Shown here in pieces: positions 9,101 to 27,198 of a DNA stretch of 27,669 nucleotides. The translations under genes and the position numbers were made by a program. How positions within the stretch are numbered: position 1 is the first letter of the stretch; every line of letters starts with the position of its first letter. Source of the DNA: a virus. The stretch covers positions 1-27,669 of the IMG/VR virus record IMGVR_UViG_3300037264_004953; one strand, given 5' to 3'. The notes under the pieces were generated by a model. The model was not told the origin of the DNA. It saw only the letters and a program-made list of their open reading frames with translations, and ran no database searches.

Positions 9101-9481
9101 GGTGTGGTTGTGTTCCCCGGGGAAGATTGGCGACTGTTTTCCAGAGAACGGCGAAACCGGCCCCTTCTTAATCCAATCGGTCTTCGTGGGACTCCACGTC
9201 CAGAGGAAGTTGTTGTCCAAGAGACACAGCTCGGGGCGACCGCCTCCGGATGGGAAGATGTGACGACCGGACGAGATGGGGGTTGTGCTGTTTTCCAGCT
9301 CAGAGAACGCCGACAGTGGCATGCGATGGAAGCCAAGCCGCGTCTCCGCACGACCAGACTTGGCCAGCACCACGTCCTCCAGCGCCACCGGCACGTCCAC
9401 TGGGCGAGCCGTGGCGTCGAGCTGCTGCTGCATGCCCTTGCCAATCGGTACCCACATCACTCGCTGGTCCTGCGGCGTCAT
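6194..9481 (-). CDS. Large tail nozzle / stabilisation-like protein (1095 aa)
   Basis: The start is fixed by an ATGA overlap with the gene before it. The protein is beta-rich throughout, with repeated strand-turn patterns. The N-terminal part (LAKSGRAETRLGF near residues 39-51) is followed by short aromatic strands of the sort LCLLDNNFLWTWSP. The C-terminal third contains VANGRVFLGRNYRRNRVAFSK, SSLDDKLVLFTTDDIFLL and PGGVMFGSDAGIHLL, which look like successive propeller blades. This resembles the P22 gp10 and T7 gp12 type of nozzle proteins, which close the tail tube below the connector. At 1095 residues it is larger than those relatives, so extra domains are likely. Its place between small structural genes and three ejection-type proteins supports the assignment. 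The family is inferred from pattern and synteny. Confidence 0.68.
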   Translation of the reverse strand: MTPQDQRVMWVPIGKGMQQQLDATARPVDVPVALEDVVLAKSGRAETRLGFHRMPLSAFSELENSTTPISSGRHIFPSGGGRPELCLLDNNFLWTWSPTKTDWIKKGPVSPFSGKQSPIFPGEHNHTGCDLAEHAGYVLHVGTRDRQIDAGAGLTSFARSNVFQVRDSGGGVVVDTNFTTDTNVSVSKYHAAGASSSLGNLWAYYQQGEVGPTNTLGRLRFPTSNPNSFTGPVTVATDVKFLQRDERSYDVMPITTGVFAGGFILCYAQVTTDAIVQQRYDASGTLQSSASLILNTPYNRVAICENPSDPLTFFLLTDSGTIDPVWSLRLYRMNKSISIAPDAGPVTVSTQPTGTLSIGASFNDLGVSAGEVGASATAVVCTWSGCETGGSYVNDSVIGNRTHNGSVAGLTALDIAEYSYNARLVTKPWIHGGRAFVTGATNVGPDTLTNITPGFQIFGVAPSGAPWDSLFTVDLRSADTATGSRQPHLVGVHDVGQATIGTRAVPRGRGNNVIRMPDYAADPSGATLSDQWRYASEHQARLHFNEPIVQNTNEVKLDFSAMPTHTDVRDGAVAISGGVISWYDGQDAFELGHLCPPVPFTCVQSTVAGATLADGTYQYIAHWAFHDAAGFLHRSIPSPPFEVLVTGAPNATDSTYRNQPVTSRLQIPAAQVAAQVFRGEDDGTYGRVSLPQRMLRNVDSAYQTEVFQDTGFIRSEPIYTQGGDIEAVIPEGAAIVTVANGRVFLGRNYRRNRVAFSKRFPPGTATETQVAPEFNEGFSTTLNDHQDISAMSSLDDKLVLFTTDDIFLLVGRGPLDNGTENDFSELTKVHSGLGCTSVRSAVETPGGVMFGSDAGIHLLDRSLSVSFIGEAVEDDTSLHPVITSAIHDVSSQLVLFTCVSKDRTSGIVLVFDYGSSAWLRWQPRKIGGYPIVAVSACMHNGQYHMVEASGLVWRQALDTDLYAYLDDQGEWVRSAVEFADVFGGEPGGWQRLSRFVPVIERLEPGESVGITATMVRDGVTDPVRNITANTISQMEGVKVPIEIRPHRQNCQSMRLRLETTRGDAAVTGRGLSISGVLVHVRPRTTAARVQEVQRT

Positions 9482-9975
9482 CGCGGATTGTGCTCCTCAA
9501 GGCGCACCGTGAATGTCATGGGGTCCAGGATGACCCCGGCTCCGCCCTTGGCGACGCTGACGAAGAGCGTGTGATCCTTTTCCACCGTGGCGACATCCAG
9601 CTCGAACGCGCGGGCGCGGCACAGAACAAGTCCCACGTCACTCGTGTTGAACGACGCGAGCGTGACGAGCTGCGTGGCCGGCGGAGTGAAGGTGTCGATG
9701 GTGTAGAGCGCGAATGCTGCGTAGTCCGCCGCGTTGGCGGTGACTCCGGCGGAGCACGTGACGCTAGCCGACACGATGCGCATGTTTCGGTCCGCCTGCA
9801 GCAGAATCGCGGCGCTCTCGTAGAGGAGGTTCGGGTCGATGTGACGATTCCACTCCGCGGTGACCGGGTCGGGGCGCGCTCTGTCCTGTCGGAGGTGCGC
9901 CTCGTTGGCTGCCTGAAGCTGCTGCGACTCGCGGCTCGGCTGAAGCGGCAGGGGGCTGCTTCGGATGGCCTTCAC
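9478..9975 (-). CDS. Small virion-associated protein of unknown function (165 aa)
   Basis: The frame is open upstream, but a GTG at 9975 overlaps the stop of the preceding gene as GTGA, and the product then begins MKAIRSSP, so I place the start there. No strong ribosome binding site precedes it, which fits coupled translation. The gene ends in ATGA with the nozzle gene. Residues 1-40 are polar with many Gln and Arg. The remainder alternates short hydrophobic strands (AFALYTIDTF, VGLVLCRARAFELDV, TFTVRLEEH) as in a beta sandwich. I recognise no family. Between the 482-residue structural protein and the nozzle gene, a minor head-tail or tail component is the most likely role. Confidence 0.6.
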   Translation of the reverse strand: MKAIRSSPLPLQPSRESQQLQAANEAHLRQDRARPDPVTAEWNRHIDPNLLYESAAILLQADRNMRIVSASVTCSAGVTANAADYAAFALYTIDTFTPPATQLVTLASFNTSDVGLVLCRARAFELDVATVEKDHTLFVSVAKGGAGVILDPMTFTVRLEEHNPR

Positions 9976-11420
9976 TTGAAGAACCCGTTTACGACCGCGG
10001 TCCCGCGGATAATCTGCGTCGCGGTGGCCGTGGCCGTCGGCATCTTGAGGATGATGGCGAAGAACCGCCCAGGCTGTACCACCTCGGTACCCTCCCATGT
10101 AACCGGCGTGTTGAACGACTGCCCAACGACGCCCCCTGTCGGGATGAACATCTGCCCGATGGCCTTGCGCATGTACGGATATGGCGCAGCGGTCGCGAGA
10201 GACACCGCCGACGAATTGAACCCGAGGCCCCAGTGCAGCGAGTGCGCGGTCGTCGCCACGGCGACAACCATGTTGAAGGCGTGGATGGTCACGCCCTTCA
10301 CGACGAGCGCGTACGGCGTCGGGACCTGGAAGCCGAAGAGGCAGTAGTCCGTCTCGGCGCCACCCACCGCGGCGAACTGCCACTGTCCACCGAGAGTCGT
10401 GTAGCCAGCCGCGGTGTTGCTCAGCGTTGCCGAGGCCGGCGCCGCGGTGTTGGCGTAGTTCGCGGTCTGCGTGTAGGCCGTCGGCGACGTGAGGCTGCCG
10501 TAGTTTTGCGCCGCCTGGATGACGTCGTAGGGAATCCCCGACAGCGAGTCGCCGGCGAACACGCTGGTGCCAGCGACGAGCATCTGAACCGCGGTGCCGG
10601 TGGCGCCGGTGTTGCAGATGTGGTGGACCGCTGCGAGATGCGTTGCCGCGAAGCCGATAATGGCCGGCGTGAACTCCAGCGTTTGCTCGTTCACCAGCGC
10701 GCCGCCCATCGTGTAGATGCGGAACGTCGCTCGCGTGTCTTCGAGGAACACCTCAAACCACGCGTAGTCCGTCGTCGGAACCGACGCGATGAACGTGGCG
10801 TTAGAGATGGGCGTCCCGAGCTGCTCACTGCCGTTCATCGAGACGACGGGAATGTACTGCCCCGTGCCATCTTTGCGCCAGAGCGCGCCGTTCAGGAATG
10901 CCACGGCAGTGACGGCCGTCGGCACGCCGAAGCCCATCTGAATCTGATTGTTCGCGAAGTGCGCAGTGTGTCGCGCCTTCGTGCGGTACGTCAGCGCAGA
11001 CCGCGGAACGTTCTGGAAGAGCCGATGCGAGACGTGCATCGCGCCGACGGTGGTCGCGAACGAGTTGCCGGCGTTGAAGGTGATGGCGCCGGTCGCCTGC
11101 GTCACCGTCATCGTGGTGAGCGTCTGCACCCACTTGTTCGAGTCGTAGGCGGCGCCCTCGACGCTGTCGTAGAGCATCAGCGTGTCGTCGCTCGTGCGAA
11201 GGGTGCCGTTGGACGAGACTCTCAGCAGGCGCGACACCTTGTAGTCGGCGCCGGAGAGCTGCAGGCCGGGCTGCGTCGTGGGAACGATCGCGGCCTTGTT
11301 GGCGGCGCTGATGACGTTGCCGGCAGCGTCGTAGAGCGTCCCGCGCGCAGCGTTGCTGGTCGCGTCGACCTTGGCGATGGTCGCGCCGTCCTGCCCTAGA
11401 TGCTGGAATTGGAAACTCAT
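9972..11420 (-). CDS. Beta-rich minor structural protein, possibly LamG/ConA-like (482 aa)
   Basis: The ATG at 11420 overlaps the stop of the collagen-like gene as ATGA. The protein is dominated by Thr, Ala, Val and Asn in alternating strand patterns. About residues 75-260 (YDSNKWVQ, ITFNAGNSFATTV, NQIQMGFGV, WFEVFLEDTRATFRIYT) look like a concanavalin/laminin-G sandwich, a fold common in phage proteins that touch sugars or surfaces. The C-terminal half (YCLFGFQVP, LVVKGVTIHAFNMVV, GRFFAIILKMP) is a second beta domain. There is no signal peptide or catalytic motif that I can see. Lying next to a collagen-like gene and before the nozzle gene, it could be a decoration, appendage or host-contact component. 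That role is inferred. Confidence 0.6.
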   Translation of the reverse strand: MSFQFQHLGQDGATIAKVDATSNAARGTLYDAAGNVISAANKAAIVPTTQPGLQLSGADYKVSRLLRVSSNGTLRTSDDTLMLYDSVEGAAYDSNKWVQTLTTMTVTQATGAITFNAGNSFATTVGAMHVSHRLFQNVPRSALTYRTKARHTAHFANNQIQMGFGVPTAVTAVAFLNGALWRKDGTGQYIPVVSMNGSEQLGTPISNATFIASVPTTDYAWFEVFLEDTRATFRIYTMGGALVNEQTLEFTPAIIGFAATHLAAVHHICNTGATGTAVQMLVAGTSVFAGDSLSGIPYDVIQAAQNYGSLTSPTAYTQTANYANTAAPASATLSNTAAGYTTLGGQWQFAAVGGAETDYCLFGFQVPTPYALVVKGVTIHAFNMVVAVATTAHSLHWGLGFNSSAVSLATAAPYPYMRKAIGQMFIPTGGVVGQSFNTPVTWEGTEVVQPGRFFAIILKMPTATATATQIIRGTAVVNGFFK

Positions 11421-18171: not shown

Positions 18172-19113
18172 TTAGCACGAAGGCTCGCACTCGAACTGCT
18201 CCTTCATGAGTAGGTCTTTGTACCACTCAGGGATACCGTGGCCCAGGCGGCGCACGAAGTCGGCCTTGGCCCACTGCCAAAGGTCCTCCTTGATAGCGTC
18301 GAGGCACTCGGTAAGGGTGTCTTCCTTGACCTCCTTCATCAGGAGGCCGATGTCGGACAGGGCGCCGGTGGCCTCGCCGCGTTCCTTTAGGTGCTGCAGC
18401 GCCTTGTGCCACCGGGCGTCGGAGCGGTACTTTGCCAGGAGGCGCTCCTTGATGTCGGAGCCGCTGGGGTGGCGGTCCTTCCAGTCGCCTTTGGCCACTT
18501 CGCGGAACTTGTCGGCCACGAACTTGCCGCAGAGAATCTTGCCGTCCTCGCCGAAGCGGTCGTAGTTCTTGATGACTACGCCCTCCATCAGGCCGCCCAG
18601 GAAGCTGGGAGTCTTCAGCAGCTCCTGGAACTGCTCGGCGTCGTCGATGCTGCCGGTGAAGAAGGCGGGAACGCACTCCAGCCCGAGTAGCTCGGCCTGT
18701 TTCCGCTTGTACTCTGGCGGGAGGAACTGCCCAGGACCGGTCTGGATGTCCCAGACGACCACGTTGCCCTCGGGCACTCGGTCGTAGGCGAGCACGTTGT
18801 GCTTCGGCTTGGACAGGTACTCGCCGCGGTAGGTCCAGCCGGCTACCATGTTCTCTGCGCAGGAGACGGCGGTGGTGACCGCCTTCTGGAACATGTCGCT
18901 GGCGTCCATCTCTGCGAGGACGAGACCCTTGTTGCGGCTGCGGCAGTGGACGACGCCGTCGGCGTCCTTACGGAAGGAGAACTGGCTGCCGTCTACCTTC
19001 TCTTCGACGTGGACCGTGCCCTTGAACAGGTCGGCGATGGCGCGGTGGCCGAGATTCCAGACCTTCGGGTACGACTCGATGATGTCTGTGGCAGCTACTA
19101 CGGAATCGGACAT
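18172..19113 (-). CDS. RNA ligase of the nucleotidyltransferase superfamily (313 aa)
   Basis: The enzyme joins RNA ends or nicks through a lysine-AMP intermediate. Motif I is EEKVDGSQF with the nucleophile K39 (KxDG). Motif III-like AGWTYRGEYL, motif IV MEGVVIKN and motif V-like GKFVADKFREV follow in the right order. The N-terminal YPKVWNLGHRAIADLF before motif I resembles Rnl2/DraRnl-type ligases more than DNA ligases. The 313-residue length leaves a C-terminal helical part (TECLDAIKEDLWQWAKADFV) after the core. GGAAAGG seven bases before the ATG is a good ribosome binding site, and the start overlaps the previous gene by 16 bp. Phage RNA ligases often repair tRNAs cut by host anticodon nucleases, and a tRNA-like element follows immediately. 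Which RNA it seals is not shown. Confidence 0.9.
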   Translation of the reverse strand: MSDSVVAATDIIESYPKVWNLGHRAIADLFKGTVHVEEKVDGSQFSFRKDADGVVHCRSRNKGLVLAEMDASDMFQKAVTTAVSCAENMVAGWTYRGEYLSKPKHNVLAYDRVPEGNVVVWDIQTGPGQFLPPEYKRKQAELLGLECVPAFFTGSIDDAEQFQELLKTPSFLGGLMEGVVIKNYDRFGEDGKILCGKFVADKFREVAKGDWKDRHPSGSDIKERLLAKYRSDARWHKALQHLKERGEATGALSDIGLLMKEVKEDTLTECLDAIKEDLWQWAKADFVRRLGHGIPEWYKDLLMKEQFECEPSC

Positions 19114-19999: not shown

Positions 20000-20220
20000 T
20001 GCATGATTCCTGACCAGCGGGCGATGTAGGCGGCCCGCTTCTCCAGCTTCCGGCGGCGCTCCGGGGAGCAGTGCTTGCGGGCAGCCAGCATCACGCAGCG
20101 CTGCATCTGCTCTCGGTAGGCTATGGCCCACAGCTCTACCACCCGTTCCGGGCGTGGGGCGTACCGTACGCCGCCGCTGTGGTACTTCCAGTCGGGGCCG
20201 AGGTTGGGGTGGTTAATCAC
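19996..20220 (-). CDS. Small basic protein following large terminase (74 aa)
   Basis: I choose the GTG at 20220: GGAGGG precedes it by four bases and it forms a GTGA overlap with the terminase stop. An earlier GTG at 20241 is possible but lacks these signals. The product has an aromatic N-terminal part (MINHPNLGPDWKYHSGGVRY) and a basic helical part (EQMQRCVMLAARKHC, PERRRKLEKRAAYIARW). It is soluble, with two Cys and a Lys/Arg-rich face that could bind nucleic acid. No family recognised. Confidence 0.6.
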   Translation of the reverse strand: MINHPNLGPDWKYHSGGVRYAPRPERVVELWAIAYREQMQRCVMLAARKHCSPERRRKLEKRAAYIARWSGIMQ

Positions 20221-21824
20221 GCAGCCCTCCGGAACGTCCACTGCCCAGGGTCTGCGCCGTTCTCTGCGTCTTCCATGCGCTGCTCCTCACGGTCTGTGTC
20301 GGTGACCATGTCCTTGTCCGGCGACGGGTCGGCCTTGTGCATAGACGCCCACATCGCAATGGCAGGAGCGTAGTCACAGTGGCGGCCGTCCATGGTCTCC
20401 GGCAACTTAATGCTCACGCCGTCCTGTGTCAATACCCGCTTGACGCGCAGCAGGTCCTGCATGACCATGGGGGAGCCGTGCAGCTCCACCTTCCGCTCGC
20501 GCACGGCTACGCGCAGGGAGTCATAGGCGTTGACCTTGCTCTTGCGCTGCCATGGTTCGTCCACGATGGAGATGCCGGCCATGCGTCCTAGCTCGATAAT
20601 GGCGTCCGCGGACCACTGGTCTGTCCGTACGTACTCCACGCCATACTGGACGCAGCAGTCGCGCACGGCGTCCACGATGCTGCCGATGGACATGCCATCG
20701 GTACGGAGCCACTGTGTGGCCAGGTATACCGTGGGCTTACCTGTTGCCCGACGTATGCCGCCGATGACCAGGGTCCAAGCGTTGCCACGGGTGGCGGGGT
20801 CCATGGCCGCGTAGTAGTGCACGCCTGGCTCAGGGGGCAGCTGACAGTCCCTGAGGACCTCCCGCAGCTCGGTGTCGGTGAACATGGACTGCTCGGGTGT
20901 GCCCCACTCACCCAGGACGTCCATGCGGTAGGCATCTGGGTCGGTCAGGCGCATGGCCTCGCAGCGCGAGGGCGTCCAGTAGACCGGGTTCAGCGCGGGG
21001 GCTGGCGCGCGTAGGACAAGCACGTGGCCCGGCTTGCCCCAGAAGGACTCGACCATCGCATATACTGGCCCCATAGGAGCCCAAGGGGAACCGATGGCCC
21101 AGAGCTGCGCCCCGGGAAGGAGGCGGCCGAGCACTGCCTTGCGGCTGGCTGAGAAGTTAACCACACCTTCCTCTTCGCCAAGCATTCTTGGAGCTTCGTC
21201 GAAGACAACGCCGGCTGACCAGTAGGACACGAGCCCGCCGCCGGCGCGCTTGCCTGCCGCGACCCGTATCTCCACGATTGTTCCGGAAGGATGGCGTAGG
21301 TCAACACCATCGACACGCACCTCGCCGACGACGAGTTGCCTGACCTTGACGCTGTGTTCGACGGCGCCGTAGAGATGCATGAGTACAGCACGTGCTTTGT
21401 CCTTATCGAGGCTGAGGATGCTGAAGCGGCACTTCTCCCCAGGGCGGAGAGCGGAAACATCAACGGTTTGGGAGGCGTATACGGCCACGGCGGCGGCGAT
21501 GAGGCTCTTGCCGCAACGGATGCCGGCCAGGACGTACACCTCAGTTGGCTTGGTGGGTACAGGCTCTGCTTTGTTCAACATCCACGGCAGGTTACACCTG
21601 TCCGTAACATCTATGGAATATTCTGATTCCGTATGGAATAATGGGTCGCCTAAGGGCGCGTAACCCTGAGACATTCGGCACAGTGCGCGCTGCCCCGGGG
21701 AGGCCGTCTGCAGGCCGAACCACTCCGGCGACATCAGCACCTCTTCCAACGACGGCGGGGTAAGGGTGTGTCCTACCAGCCGTCGGGCCTCAAGGATGAG
21801 GCCGTCGTCTAGGATGCTGTTCAA
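20217..21824 (-). CDS. terL: Terminase large subunit (535 aa)
   Basis: This ATPase and nuclease pumps DNA into the procapsid and cuts it. The Walker A motif is GIRCGKS at residues 101-107, Walker B is GVVFDE ending at Glu210, and the coupling motif region GSPWAP lies near 246. The nuclease domain begins at YYAAMDPATRG (Asp342), with later acidic positions in VDEPW and CDYAPAIAMW. The length is typical. The TTG at 21824 overlaps the previous stop (TTGA), giving MNSILDDG. An alternative ATG at residue 31 has a better ribosome binding site (GGAAGAGG), so a shorter form is possible. The gene then overlaps the next one as GTGA. Confidence 0.88.
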   Translation of the reverse strand: MNSILDDGLILEARRLVGHTLTPPSLEEVLMSPEWFGLQTASPGQRALCRMSQGYAPLGDPLFHTESEYSIDVTDRCNLPWMLNKAEPVPTKPTEVYVLAGIRCGKSLIAAAVAVYASQTVDVSALRPGEKCRFSILSLDKDKARAVLMHLYGAVEHSVKVRQLVVGEVRVDGVDLRHPSGTIVEIRVAAGKRAGGGLVSYWSAGVVFDEAPRMLGEEEGVVNFSASRKAVLGRLLPGAQLWAIGSPWAPMGPVYAMVESFWGKPGHVLVLRAPAPALNPVYWTPSRCEAMRLTDPDAYRMDVLGEWGTPEQSMFTDTELREVLRDCQLPPEPGVHYYAAMDPATRGNAWTLVIGGIRRATGKPTVYLATQWLRTDGMSIGSIVDAVRDCCVQYGVEYVRTDQWSADAIIELGRMAGISIVDEPWQRKSKVNAYDSLRVAVRERKVELHGSPMVMQDLLRVKRVLTQDGVSIKLPETMDGRHCDYAPAIAMWASMHKADPSPDKDMVTDTDREEQRMEDAENGADPGQWTFRRAA

Positions 21825-22355: not shown

Positions 22356-22372
22356 GGGACACCATTAGCAGG

Positions 22373-22443
22373 AGCGCCACCGCGGATTCGAACCGCACCC
22401 GGAGGGCTGGCGACCCACCGTGCTACCGCTACACCAGAGGCGC
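22373..22443 (-). tRNA. tRNA-Gly(GCC)-like gene, non-canonical anticodon loop
   Basis: All four arms fold: acceptor GCGCCTC/GTGGCGC with one T-T mismatch, D-arm GTGT/GCAC with a seven-base loop containing GG, anticodon arm GTGGG/CCCTC with one T-T mismatch, a four-base variable loop, and T-arm TGCGG/CCGCG with loop TTCGAAT. The anticodon loop TCGCCAG places GCC at 34-36, reading glycine GGC/GGT codons. Position 33 is C rather than the near-universal U, and CCA is not encoded (CCT follows the discriminator). It is 17 bp before the putative small terminase gene, in the same direction. It could be a functional tRNA, a variant for a special use, or starting to decay. Confidence 0.75.
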
Positions 22444-24666: not shown

Positions 24667-24879
24667 TCACTCCAAGTCACGAGGTGCGCCGTTCAGTGGG
24701 TAGGACTGCGGCAGCGGGTCGTGGTCGTGGCTGTATACGCGGTTATCCACGTAGACAAGCTCGATACCGGGCGGCGCGTCGTCGTGGCATGGTTGCCGCG
24801 GCGCGGCCGGTTGCGGTGGTGGTGGCTGGGAAGCGCAGGCCGTAGCCAGCGCTGCGATTGCGATGATGATTAGTTTCAT
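24667..24879 (-). CDS. Small proline-rich lipoprotein (70 aa)
   Basis: The ATG overlaps the preceding stop (ATGA). The N-terminus MKLIIIAIAALATACAS is a short type II signal with a lipobox-like LATAC, giving a lipidated Cys15 (the -3 residue is Ala rather than Leu, slightly off consensus). A PPPPQPAAPRQP segment follows, then a hydrophilic tail with several His and Asp. It would sit on the outer face of the inner membrane or in the outer membrane. Small proline-rich lipoproteins in phages are often Rz1-type spanins, but there is no Rz-like partner next to it, so surface exclusion is an alternative role. Confidence 0.65.
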   Translation of the reverse strand: MKLIIIAIAALATACASQPPPPQPAAPRQPCHDDAPPGIELVYVDNRVYSHDHDPLPQSYPLNGAPRDLE

Positions 24880-25091
24880 GGTCTTCGCAGCCTAACCAGC
24901 GCGTCGGCACGCCGCAAGGGGCAAAAGACGGGCGGCGTTCGGTCGATACCGACCATGAGCCACAGGTCCTTACCCGTGCCATCGGGATGATTGCAGTAGG
25001 AATCGTCATAGTTCTGATGGTAGAACGGGCACACCCGGTGCTCACACCCATCTACCTCATGCACCACAACGGCCTGCTTAGTCCACGTCAT
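24876..25091 (-). CDS. Small Cys/His-rich, probably zinc-binding phage protein (71 aa)
   Basis: The ATG at 25091 overlaps the upstream stop as ATGA and follows a GGGGGCGAGGG tract. Cysteines and histidines are placed as C16, H18, C21, CPF, H25, C33-NHP and C57-PLR. The order CPF, then YCNHP, then a short strand and PPVFCPLR is a recurring pattern in small phage proteins of unknown function and implies one metal site. It is encoded between two other small genes in the operon led by the amidoligase. Confidence 0.66.
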   Translation of the reverse strand: MTWTKQAVVVHEVDGCEHRVCPFYHQNYDDSYCNHPDGTGKDLWLMVGIDRTPPVFCPLRRADALVRLRRP

Positions 25092-25324
25092 CCCTCGCCC
25101 CCCATTTCGCACTCATACCAGACACTTCCGTCATAGTCCTGTGACCAGACCATGCCGTCGGTATCCTCTACAGATACCGACACTGGCACACTGGACACTG
25201 GGCCGGATGGCACGCTTCGCAGCGTGACCGGCGCATCATCGCAGATTGCATCGATAGCGCCGTCAATCTCCGCCAAGAGAACGCGGCGCAAGCGGCCTAG
25301 AGCACGTCGAGCTATGATTGACAT
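25088..25324 (-). CDS. Unknown small protein (78 aa)
   Basis: It starts 18 bp after the glutamine amidotransferase stop. The N-terminus is a basic amphipathic helix (MSIIARRALGRLRRVLLAEI). The middle is a Ser/Val/Pro-rich strand segment (VPVSVSVEDTDG) and the end is acidic with aromatics (MVWSQDYDGSVWYECE). No family recognised. Linked to the next gene by ATGA. It contains a stray TTGCGCCGC sequence in its coding region, which I do not count as a promoter. Confidence 0.55.
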   Translation of the reverse strand: MSIIARRALGRLRRVLLAEIDGAIDAICDDAPVTLRSVPSGPVSSVPVSVSVEDTDGMVWSQDYDGSVWYECEMGGEG

Positions 25325-25342
25325 ACGACCACCGTAACCACG

Positions 25343-26068
25343 TCAACCGACCTTGCAATCCCAGTGCTCACTATCCCATGCCCATTGGTGCCTTTCCCCG
25401 GTTCCGATTGCCAGCTTGTCTGATGTCGAGAATAGACCATCGGACCTCACATCGTAGACCACGTGCTGCTCGGTGCGGTAGGACTTGTGCCGCACGCCCG
25501 CCGCTCTCATAGCAGCGTCTAGGTGCTGGCGCTCTGAGGACCACACGACACCGCGCGGCGTGCGCCCCTGGTCCCCCAGTATGGCAGCTACAGCAAGCTC
25601 GCCATTGCCTATGTTGCACAGCTTGACCGCGTCTAGGTCACCGTCAGCGACCCACGATACCGCCCCGTTTCCTGACAGGTCGTCCAAGCCGCGACCGTAC
25701 GCAACGCGCATGGCTATCAGCTGGCTATCCACCGCGACCTGCTCATACATCCCAGGGAACATGACACAGCCATTGTGCGACAGTAGCGTGTCCAAGTAGC
25801 GGAAGGGATGGGCGTTGCCTACCGTAACCGCGCCATGGGTAGCGAATCGAGTATGGGCCATGACCGTCTTACGCCTCGACAGTGACCGCCAAACGCGGTC
25901 GATGTCGCCAAGTCCGCGTTGCCGTGTCCAGCCCCCGCCGTCGCTACGCGGATGGGCGTAGCCCCAGGAATCGCCGCCGCGAGTGTCATTCAGTGGCGCC
26001 AGCCAGCGCGAAAGCGTGCGTCGCTCGTGGTTTCTCAGGTCACCAATCCAGCCGAATAGACCGCACAT
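25343..26068 (-). CDS. Class II glutamine amidotransferase (Ntn hydrolase, 241 aa)
   Basis: The start MCGLFGWIG exposes Cys2 as the N-terminal nucleophile after Met removal, the hallmark of class II glutamine amidotransferases, which release ammonia from glutamine. HTRFATHG and LSHNGCV match the conserved regions that shape the active site. The chain is a single domain with no synthase domain fused. It begins at the TAATG junction with the amidoligase gene, so the two are translated together, and the amidoligase is the likely acceptor of the ammonia, or the pair works on the same amide. Such pairs in phages and bacteria were predicted by genome comparison to modify peptides or cell wall. No substrate can be read from sequence. 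Confidence 0.87.
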   Translation of the reverse strand: MCGLFGWIGDLRNHERRTLSRWLAPLNDTRGGDSWGYAHPRSDGGGWTRQRGLGDIDRVWRSLSRRKTVMAHTRFATHGAVTVGNAHPFRYLDTLLSHNGCVMFPGMYEQVAVDSQLIAMRVAYGRGLDDLSGNGAVSWVADGDLDAVKLCNIGNGELAVAAILGDQGRTPRGVVWSSERQHLDAAMRAAGVRHKSYRTEQHVVYDVRSDGLFSTSDKLAIGTGERHQWAWDSEHWDCKVG

Positions 26069-27198
26069 TATGCTACCCTCAGGTTGTATTGACGGAACCG
26101 GTCGAATCTCAGCACGCGTTGCCTCACGTAGCGCGCCGTCTCTCGGGACACGAGAAGCGGGCTCAGGAACCCGTCCAGGGTATCCTGCGCCCCGGCCATG
26201 TCCGTGTCAATGATGCGAGTAAGAAGGTCGACCCAATACAGAATCTTGGGCGCGCTGACGGTGCCACTGTGGAGCCTGACCTCTAAGGTATTGTGCTCTT
26301 CCACCGATGAGGCGTTAACCGCGTAATAGCGCAGACCGAGCCGCGGCTCTTCGGGTGGCCATTCGCAAAACTCGTTGCCGACGCGGGAGACTGGCACCAT
26401 AGAAAACAGCCACGGCATTGCCGCGTAGAGTCTACGATAGCAGGTGCGCCAGTCACGGCGTCGCATGTCTAGGTGGACGTGTAGTCCGCAGGTTGTGTTG
26501 ACCACGCCGTCAGCGTCGGCAATGGCTTCGCACGTTCGACGCACCACGCGCTCAACATCGGACTGTCTTGCGCATATGCGTAGCTCGACTGGGGTATGGT
26601 CTTCTCCGAAGGAGAGGCTACCATCTTCGCCAACGGTTACGCGCGTGCACAGCTTGCGCGATTCCAGGCCGCTAATAAGCATGCTGGGCGACTCTACGCC
26701 ACACTCTATCTCGATGCCGACGTGGTGCTCGGGACCGATGGGGCCAAGGTCGCGCCGCAGTAGTATCTGGCGCCAGTGCGAGGGTCGCGATGCGAAGCTA
26801 AAGCCGTAGCGGCTAGGCCCCGTATCGTCGTCTAGGCGACGTCGCAGGGACCGGCCGCGGGCCACGTCCCGCCGTACCTCGTGCACCGCGGTCAGTGATG
26901 CTCGCCACGCCGGTGTGGACAGGGTAAAGCTAACCCTGCGCTCAATGCCGCTGATATGACGCGCGGTAACGGTGCCTACGCCTACGCTGCTGCTCCTGTT
27001 GGACCGGATTACGCGGATGCGGTCGGCATACCAGCAGCCCTGTGGATTGCCAGACTGGCATGTACTACACTTCTGGTGCACGGAGCGGTAGTATACCAGG
27101 TCGGCGTTCAGGGTGGCTAGCGAGCCGCTCTCGTGCTCTACCCGAATTGAGGATATGTCGGATAGCCTACCCCTGAGCCGTTTCGTCTTTGCTTTCAT
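26068..27198 (-). CDS. Amidoligase (GS-like COOH-NH2 ligase, 376 aa)
   Basis: The C-terminal two thirds match the amidoligase_2 pattern: HVGIEIECGVE at about residues 159-169, EDGS at 191, VELRI at 204-208, CGLHVHLD at 237-244 and TLEVRLHSGT at 304-313, supplying the acidic and His metal and ATP ligands of the glutamine-synthetase fold. The enzyme is expected to form amide bonds between a carboxylate and an amine. About 155 N-terminal residues precede it, with CSTC (44-47) and C55 that could bind a metal; I recognise no domain there. The ATG at 27198 is preferred over a TTG at 27222 because it lies 26 bases after the conserved TTGCGCCGC. The gene joins the amidotransferase by TAATG. Confidence 0.83.
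   Translation of the reverse strand: MKAKTKRLRGRLSDISSIRVEHESGSLATLNADLVYYRSVHQKCSTCQSGNPQGCWYADRIRVIRSNRSSSVGVGTVTARHISGIERRVSFTLSTPAWRASLTAVHEVRRDVARGRSLRRRLDDDTGPSRYGFSFASRPSHWRQILLRRDLGPIGPEHHVGIEIECGVESPSMLISGLESRKLCTRVTVGEDGSLSFGEDHTPVELRICARQSDVERVVRRTCEAIADADGVVNTTCGLHVHLDMRRRDWRTCYRRLYAAMPWLFSMVPVSRVGNEFCEWPPEEPRLGLRYYAVNASSVEEHNTLEVRLHSGTVSAPKILYWVDLLTRIIDTDMAGAQDTLDGFLSPLLVSRETARYVRQRVLRFDRFRQYNLRVA

Follow-up and report, generated by a model that had tools for sequence, protein, structure and literature searches.

The window (virus record IMGVR_UViG_3300037264_004953, 27,669 bases) encodes near its right end an amidoligase and a class II glutamine amidotransferase that form a real and ordinary pair, a minimal and divergent version of a phage module that is widespread and already described. 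Functional pairing of the two enzymes is supported by profile matches, conserved residues, two predicted folds and co-occurrence in phages. A version with only two genes is easier to approach by enzymology than the six-gene cassettes, and its substrate, if found, would show whether infecting phages alter wall precursors or label proteins. What the window contributes is a further divergent example and no new principle.

The two predicted enzymes

Both genes lie on the minus strand.

26068..27198 (-), amidoligase (GS-like carboxylate-amine/ammonia ligase), 376 aa, ATG at 27198; assigned by PF12224, residues and GS fold
25343..26068 (-), single-domain class II glutamine amidotransferase, 241 aa, Cys2 nucleophile; assigned by phrog_4736, residues and fold
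26066..26070 (-), TAATG junction, ligase stop and amidotransferase start with one base in common

The preliminary description had proposed this GS-like amidoligase and this single-domain amidotransferase, overlapping by TAATG. Coordinates and sequence agree on the overlap, with the ligase stop TAA at 26070-26068 and the amidotransferase start ATG at 26068-26066; a GAGG Shine-Dalgarno-like stretch lies 5' of that start, within the ligase gene. Structure prediction, which had been suggested as a check on both proteins, returned a GS fold for the first and a GlmS glutaminase fold for the second.

The amidoligase matches Amidoligase_2 (PF12224) with an E-value of 1.7e-11 and 44.9 bits, above the curated cut-off of 22, and phrog_2443 with an E-value of 2.1e-11. 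In an alignment of 36 sequences, the window protein and 35 phage ligases, the residues G161, E163, E165, E205, H240, H242, Y291, N295, E306 and R308 are invariant. Their order, ExE ... E ... HxH ... ExR, matches the order in which glutamine synthetase carries its metal- and ATP-binding residues, a likeness in order and not a residue-by-residue mapping. The catalytic domain of the model (~155-370) has pLDDT values mostly of 90-98, and its structure alignment with glutamine synthetases gives Z 13-14 across 170-210 residues and, with YbdK (1r8g), Z 13.6. A plain Foldseek search of the PDB placed PII-like and aspartate-kinase regulatory domains in its top rows (E > 0.001) and did not list GS; the GS likeness was recovered afterwards by a second aligner. 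The significant viral matches of the model in BFVD are mostly annotated phage amidoligases, with the ligase of Arthrobacter phage Salgado as one of the top structural matches (3.1e-13). Solved structures of the amidoligase, sought by sequence, and close relatives, sought by a single-protein scan of IMG/VR, gave no hits. A profile match, retained Glu/His ligands and a related fold were thus found where the preliminary description had named their lack as grounds for rejection. As judged from its sequence and its predicted model, the protein is an Amidoligase_2 member with a glutamine-synthetase catalytic fold, for which amide formation is predicted.

One BFVD entry, A0A2L1J0D3 of Mycobacterium phage Tesla, is named 'glutamine amidotransferase domain protein' and structurally matches the amidoligase model (E 1.3e-7); judged by that match, its name is possibly swapped.

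The amidotransferase matches phrog_4736 with an E-value of 8.6e-12. Other profiles also gave significant matches, whereas the Pfam GATase_6 match (E 6.9e-05, 23.3 bits) falls below its 27-bit cut-off. Among 42 sequences the residues C2, R30, G31, H72, R74, A76, T77, G79, N85, H87, P88, H98, N99, G100 and D114 are invariant, and the HTRxATHG and NAHPF segments of GlmS are found in the protein. Its model has pLDDT ~95 up to residue 205 and aligns with the GlmS glutaminase at Z 21 (209 residues, rmsd 3.6) and with EgtC at Z 18 (194 residues). The predicted fold and the residues are unambiguous and describe a complete Ntn glutaminase fold with an N-terminal Cys. A single-protein scan of IMG/VR returned no close relatives, and the amidotransferase loci in IMG/VR were gathered with an alignment query rather than a single-protein query.

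The glutaminase domain of GlmS and EgtC share both fold and glutamine-site residues with the window protein. GlmS is a glutaminase fused to a sugar isomerase, and EgtC hydrolyses a gamma-glutamyl compound and is not known to adjoin an amidoligase. The amidotransferase might instead be an EgtC-like gamma-glutamyl amidohydrolase whose step precedes or follows that of the ligase, for instance the removal of a gamma-glutamyl group attached by the ligase or another enzyme; this role is unlikely, yet several points favour it. EgtC is a relative that likewise has one domain and a comparable length, the EgtC profile TIGR03442 gives a weak match (23.3 bits; the curated cut-off of 218.65 is not reached), gamma-glutamyl cyclotransferase genes occur near many pairs, and the phage amidotransferase is classed as a degradation gene in PMC5498523. 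The protein is nevertheless nearer the GlmS glutaminase in its family match, its Z score and its two GlmS segments. The near-constant presence of a ligase, described below, fits a shared reaction, though it also fits sequential reactions.

Co-occurrence and organization in other phages

The sample consisted of the 80 viral loci most similar to the amidotransferase, with ligases ignored in the choice. Five of the 80 encode a protein of ~580-610 aa, the length of full GlmS. An amidoligase is present in the fetched stretch of 73 of the 75 loci of non-GlmS length; the contig of one of the two exceptions (L019) stops ~100 bases past the amidotransferase. In bacterial and archaeal genomes, by comparison, the stretches fetched around the 80 closest amidotransferase hits contain no amidoligase. 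Nearly all of these hits are full GlmS: the proteins at 76 of them exceed 540 aa and the other four lie at a contig end. Across 40 dereplicated loci, ligase and amidotransferase distances correlate with r 0.71, whereas 2000 shuffles gave at most 0.23; shared phage ancestry contributes in part to this correlation. Fused ligase-amidotransferase proteins were not found in the phage loci.

It is most improbable that the two genes are unrelated and chance neighbours in a mosaic phage genome. The flanking genes of the window are not common to other pairs, which marks the neighbourhood as a whole as mosaic, but the co-occurrence in phages and not in cellular genomes, the gene overlap and the correlated divergence all argue against chance. 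The description of the pair as an accessory phage module is correct, and is already in the literature.

The loci differ in the genes that accompany the pair. About 20 viral loci carry a larger set consisting of the amidotransferase, a COOH-NH2 ligase (PF14395, named 'Phage phiEco32-like'), an unnamed middle protein, the amidoligase and usually an ATP-grasp protein, often also with a gamma-glutamyl cyclotransferase. This larger set is listed for phage UFV-P2 (PMC3890496) and is called a peptidoglycan modification cassette or module (PMC5498523, PMC11945000). The LUZ24/phiEco32/RIO-1-type cassette has the same two families as the window, PF12224 and a class II amidotransferase (PMC5498523, PMC3890496), but its amidotransferases are longer, at ~450-490 aa, and it adds the COOH-NH2 ligase, middle protein, ATP-grasp protein and gamma-glutamyl cyclotransferase. 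None of these four was found in the window, a fragment that ends ~470 bases past the pair.

The remaining viral loci have the pair in either order or divergent. The order of ligase followed by amidotransferase is found in the window, in Salgado genes 98/99, and in L010, L011, L036, L058 and L073. Fourteen pairs are divergent and ~0.4-1.2 kb apart (L015, L018, L024, L027, L032, L038, L042, L043, L045, L078, L080, L081, L082 and L086), and no further cassette genes were found in these 14 loci.

The nearest pair overall, L010 (IMGVR_UViG_3300037307_000160), is a ligase followed by an amidotransferase, with 29% and 31% identity to the window proteins. Unlike the window, it has a 99-base gap between the genes, a ligase without an N-terminal extension and an amidotransferase of 316 aa. 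Genes 97-98-99 of Salgado (Laroyevirus) likewise resemble the window, with a minimal pair in which the class II amidotransferase comes after the amidoligase. They differ from it in the 118-base gap between the genes, where those of the window overlap, in an AIG2-like gamma-glutamyl cyclotransferase directly upstream, and in a ligase that lacks the CSTC region; identity is 19-25%. Salgado gene 99 (L008:6746-7633) is a class II glutamine amidotransferase with intact residues by both GenBank and alignment; gene 99 of the Salgado cluster is termed a 'GTPase domain protein' in PMC5513430.

No amidotransferase was detected near the amidoligases of L005, L006 and L007 (Porphyromonas and human gut phages); an amidotransferase may thus be dispensable to the ligase in some cases. 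In L005 and L006 the amidoligase lies among head genes, between portal/adaptor and neck genes.

Predicted reaction, amidoligase extension and candidate targets

The pair is probably a phage-borne, cytoplasmic two-component enzyme that forms amides. The amidotransferase would hydrolyse glutamine and hand the ammonia to the amidoligase, which would use ATP to activate a carboxylate to an acyl phosphate and turn this into an amide. MurT-GatD of Staphylococcus aureus (PMC3267633), likewise a ligase and an amidotransferase that form an amide, serves as a model for the wall chemistry supposed for the phage pair. The families are unrelated to those of the window: MurT is Mur-ligase-like and GatD belongs to the class I (CobB/CobQ-like) amidotransferases, in contrast with the GS-like and class II proteins of the phage pair.

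The substrate may be a cytoplasmic precursor of the host wall peptide, such that new wall would be altered during infection, as has been proposed for the larger phage cassettes (PMC5498523); this assignment is tentative. In favour of a wall target, the larger cassettes contain gamma-glutamyl-type ligases and cyclotransferases. The predicted cassette of Pseudoalteromonas phage HP1 is expressed immediately (PMC7082346), which is consistent with the prediction of action on wall precursors and against superinfection. That a wall change acts against superinfection is a prediction credited to Iyer et al. 2009 in passages of PMC10580990 and PMC11318856. These two papers, PMC5498523 and PMC11945000 contain the prediction only, and no experimental test of a change in host peptidoglycan. 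The suggestion in the preliminary description that the pair acts on the envelope to block a second infection restates this published prediction.

Alternative targets are best considered with the N-terminal part of the amidoligase, where the preliminary description had noted an extension of roughly 155 residues with a CSTC motif.

26734..27198 (-), N-terminal extension of the window amidoligase, residues 1-155, with H41-x2-C44-x2-C47-x8-C56; coding by codon usage
L028:7151-9181, L035:7124-9130, L011:4705-5997, L013:7379-8574 and L014:7123-7952, amidoligases with CxxC arrays
L036:3943-5994, amidoligase with pentapeptide repeats

The ~155 residues that precede the GIEIE strand are real coding sequence, and the claim stands: codon usage ranks this frame first among the six (0.004, against values no higher than -0.18 for the others and 0.028 for the ligase core). 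The extension has pLDDT mostly < 50 in the model, and no credible sequence relatives were found among 50,697 phage records or the fetched loci. In full cassettes an unnamed middle protein comes before the ligase; that the extension is this protein in fused form was suggested by eye but is not supported (hhalign probability 0.1, no HMM match). At the level of a guess, H41, C44, C47 and C56 might bind a metal, and the extension might, equally as a guess, serve as an adaptor for binding a substrate or partner.

Phage amidoligases commonly have N-terminal extensions of ~100-370 residues and of differing kinds. CxxC arrays are found in those of L028, L030, L035, L039, L044, L054, L011, L013 and L014, with up to nine CxxC pairs per amidoligase (L011), and pentapeptide repeats form the extension of L036; the amidoligases of L010, L017 and L016 have no extension. 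Because these N-terminal modules differ, a variable front piece is a recurrent trait of phage amidoligases, to which the window adds a further version.

Such variety is the argument for a reading in which the pair acts not on the wall but on a protein or other intracellular molecule, whether of the host or of the phage, and the extension picks the target. CxxC arrays (L011, L013, L014, L028, L035) and pentapeptide repeats (L036) are types of module for which binding to proteins or nucleic acids is common; the extension of the window has its H41/C44/C47/C56 set. Many family members lack an extension, however, as in L010, L017 and L016, and the gamma-glutamyl-type enzymes of the full cassettes suit small peptides; this reading is judged unlikely. 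In a broader form of the idea, phage amidoligases would be modular, combining a GS-like core and an amidotransferase with swappable N-terminal adaptors that direct them to varied intracellular targets and not, or not only, to the wall. This generalization is rather improbable, and it is just as doubtful that the CxxC arrays, the pentapeptide repeats and the unmatched H-C-C-C region of the window are its adaptors. Amide formation by the two proteins, with a wall-peptide precursor as the tentative substrate, remains the preferred reading.

Neighbouring genes and the phage fragment

Three small ORFs follow the pair on the same strand.

25088..25324 (-), 78-aa ORF downstream of the pair; no family above cut-off
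24876..25091 (-), Cys/His-rich miniprotein, ATG at 25091; described from its sequence
24667..24879 (-), proline-rich lipoprotein-like ORF, 70 aa, ...ALATAC; possibly Rz1-like

A small lipoprotein and a zinc-type miniprotein had been offered as a clue to an envelope target. Both ORFs are present, but among ORFs of at least 60 aa in the phage loci no relatives were found of the lipoprotein, the miniprotein, the 78-aa ORF or the DUF932 protein. Because none recur beside other pairs, the lipoprotein and the miniprotein are no argument for an envelope target, and membership of the small downstream ORFs in the module is not supported. The lipoprotein-like ORF has a weak match to phrog_812, an Rz-like spanin (E 0.0029), and possibly has a role in lysis if it is Rz-like.

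Promoter and terminator scans of the window gave counts equal to those of shuffled sequence. Two long ORFs of the window, 9478-10383 and 9972-11420 (-), share a strand and overlap by ~410 bases in different frames. Family searches with them gave no matches; one of the two is probably not a gene, or there is a frameshift or a late start.

The following phage hallmark genes identify the window as a phage fragment.

16080-18041 (-), P22/SU10-like portal
18172-19113 (-), RNA ligase
20217-21824 (-), terminase large subunit

The RNA ligase shares the phage with a tRNA-Gly(gcc) gene at 22371-22443 (-), and the two could work together in repairing tRNA as a counter to host nucleases.
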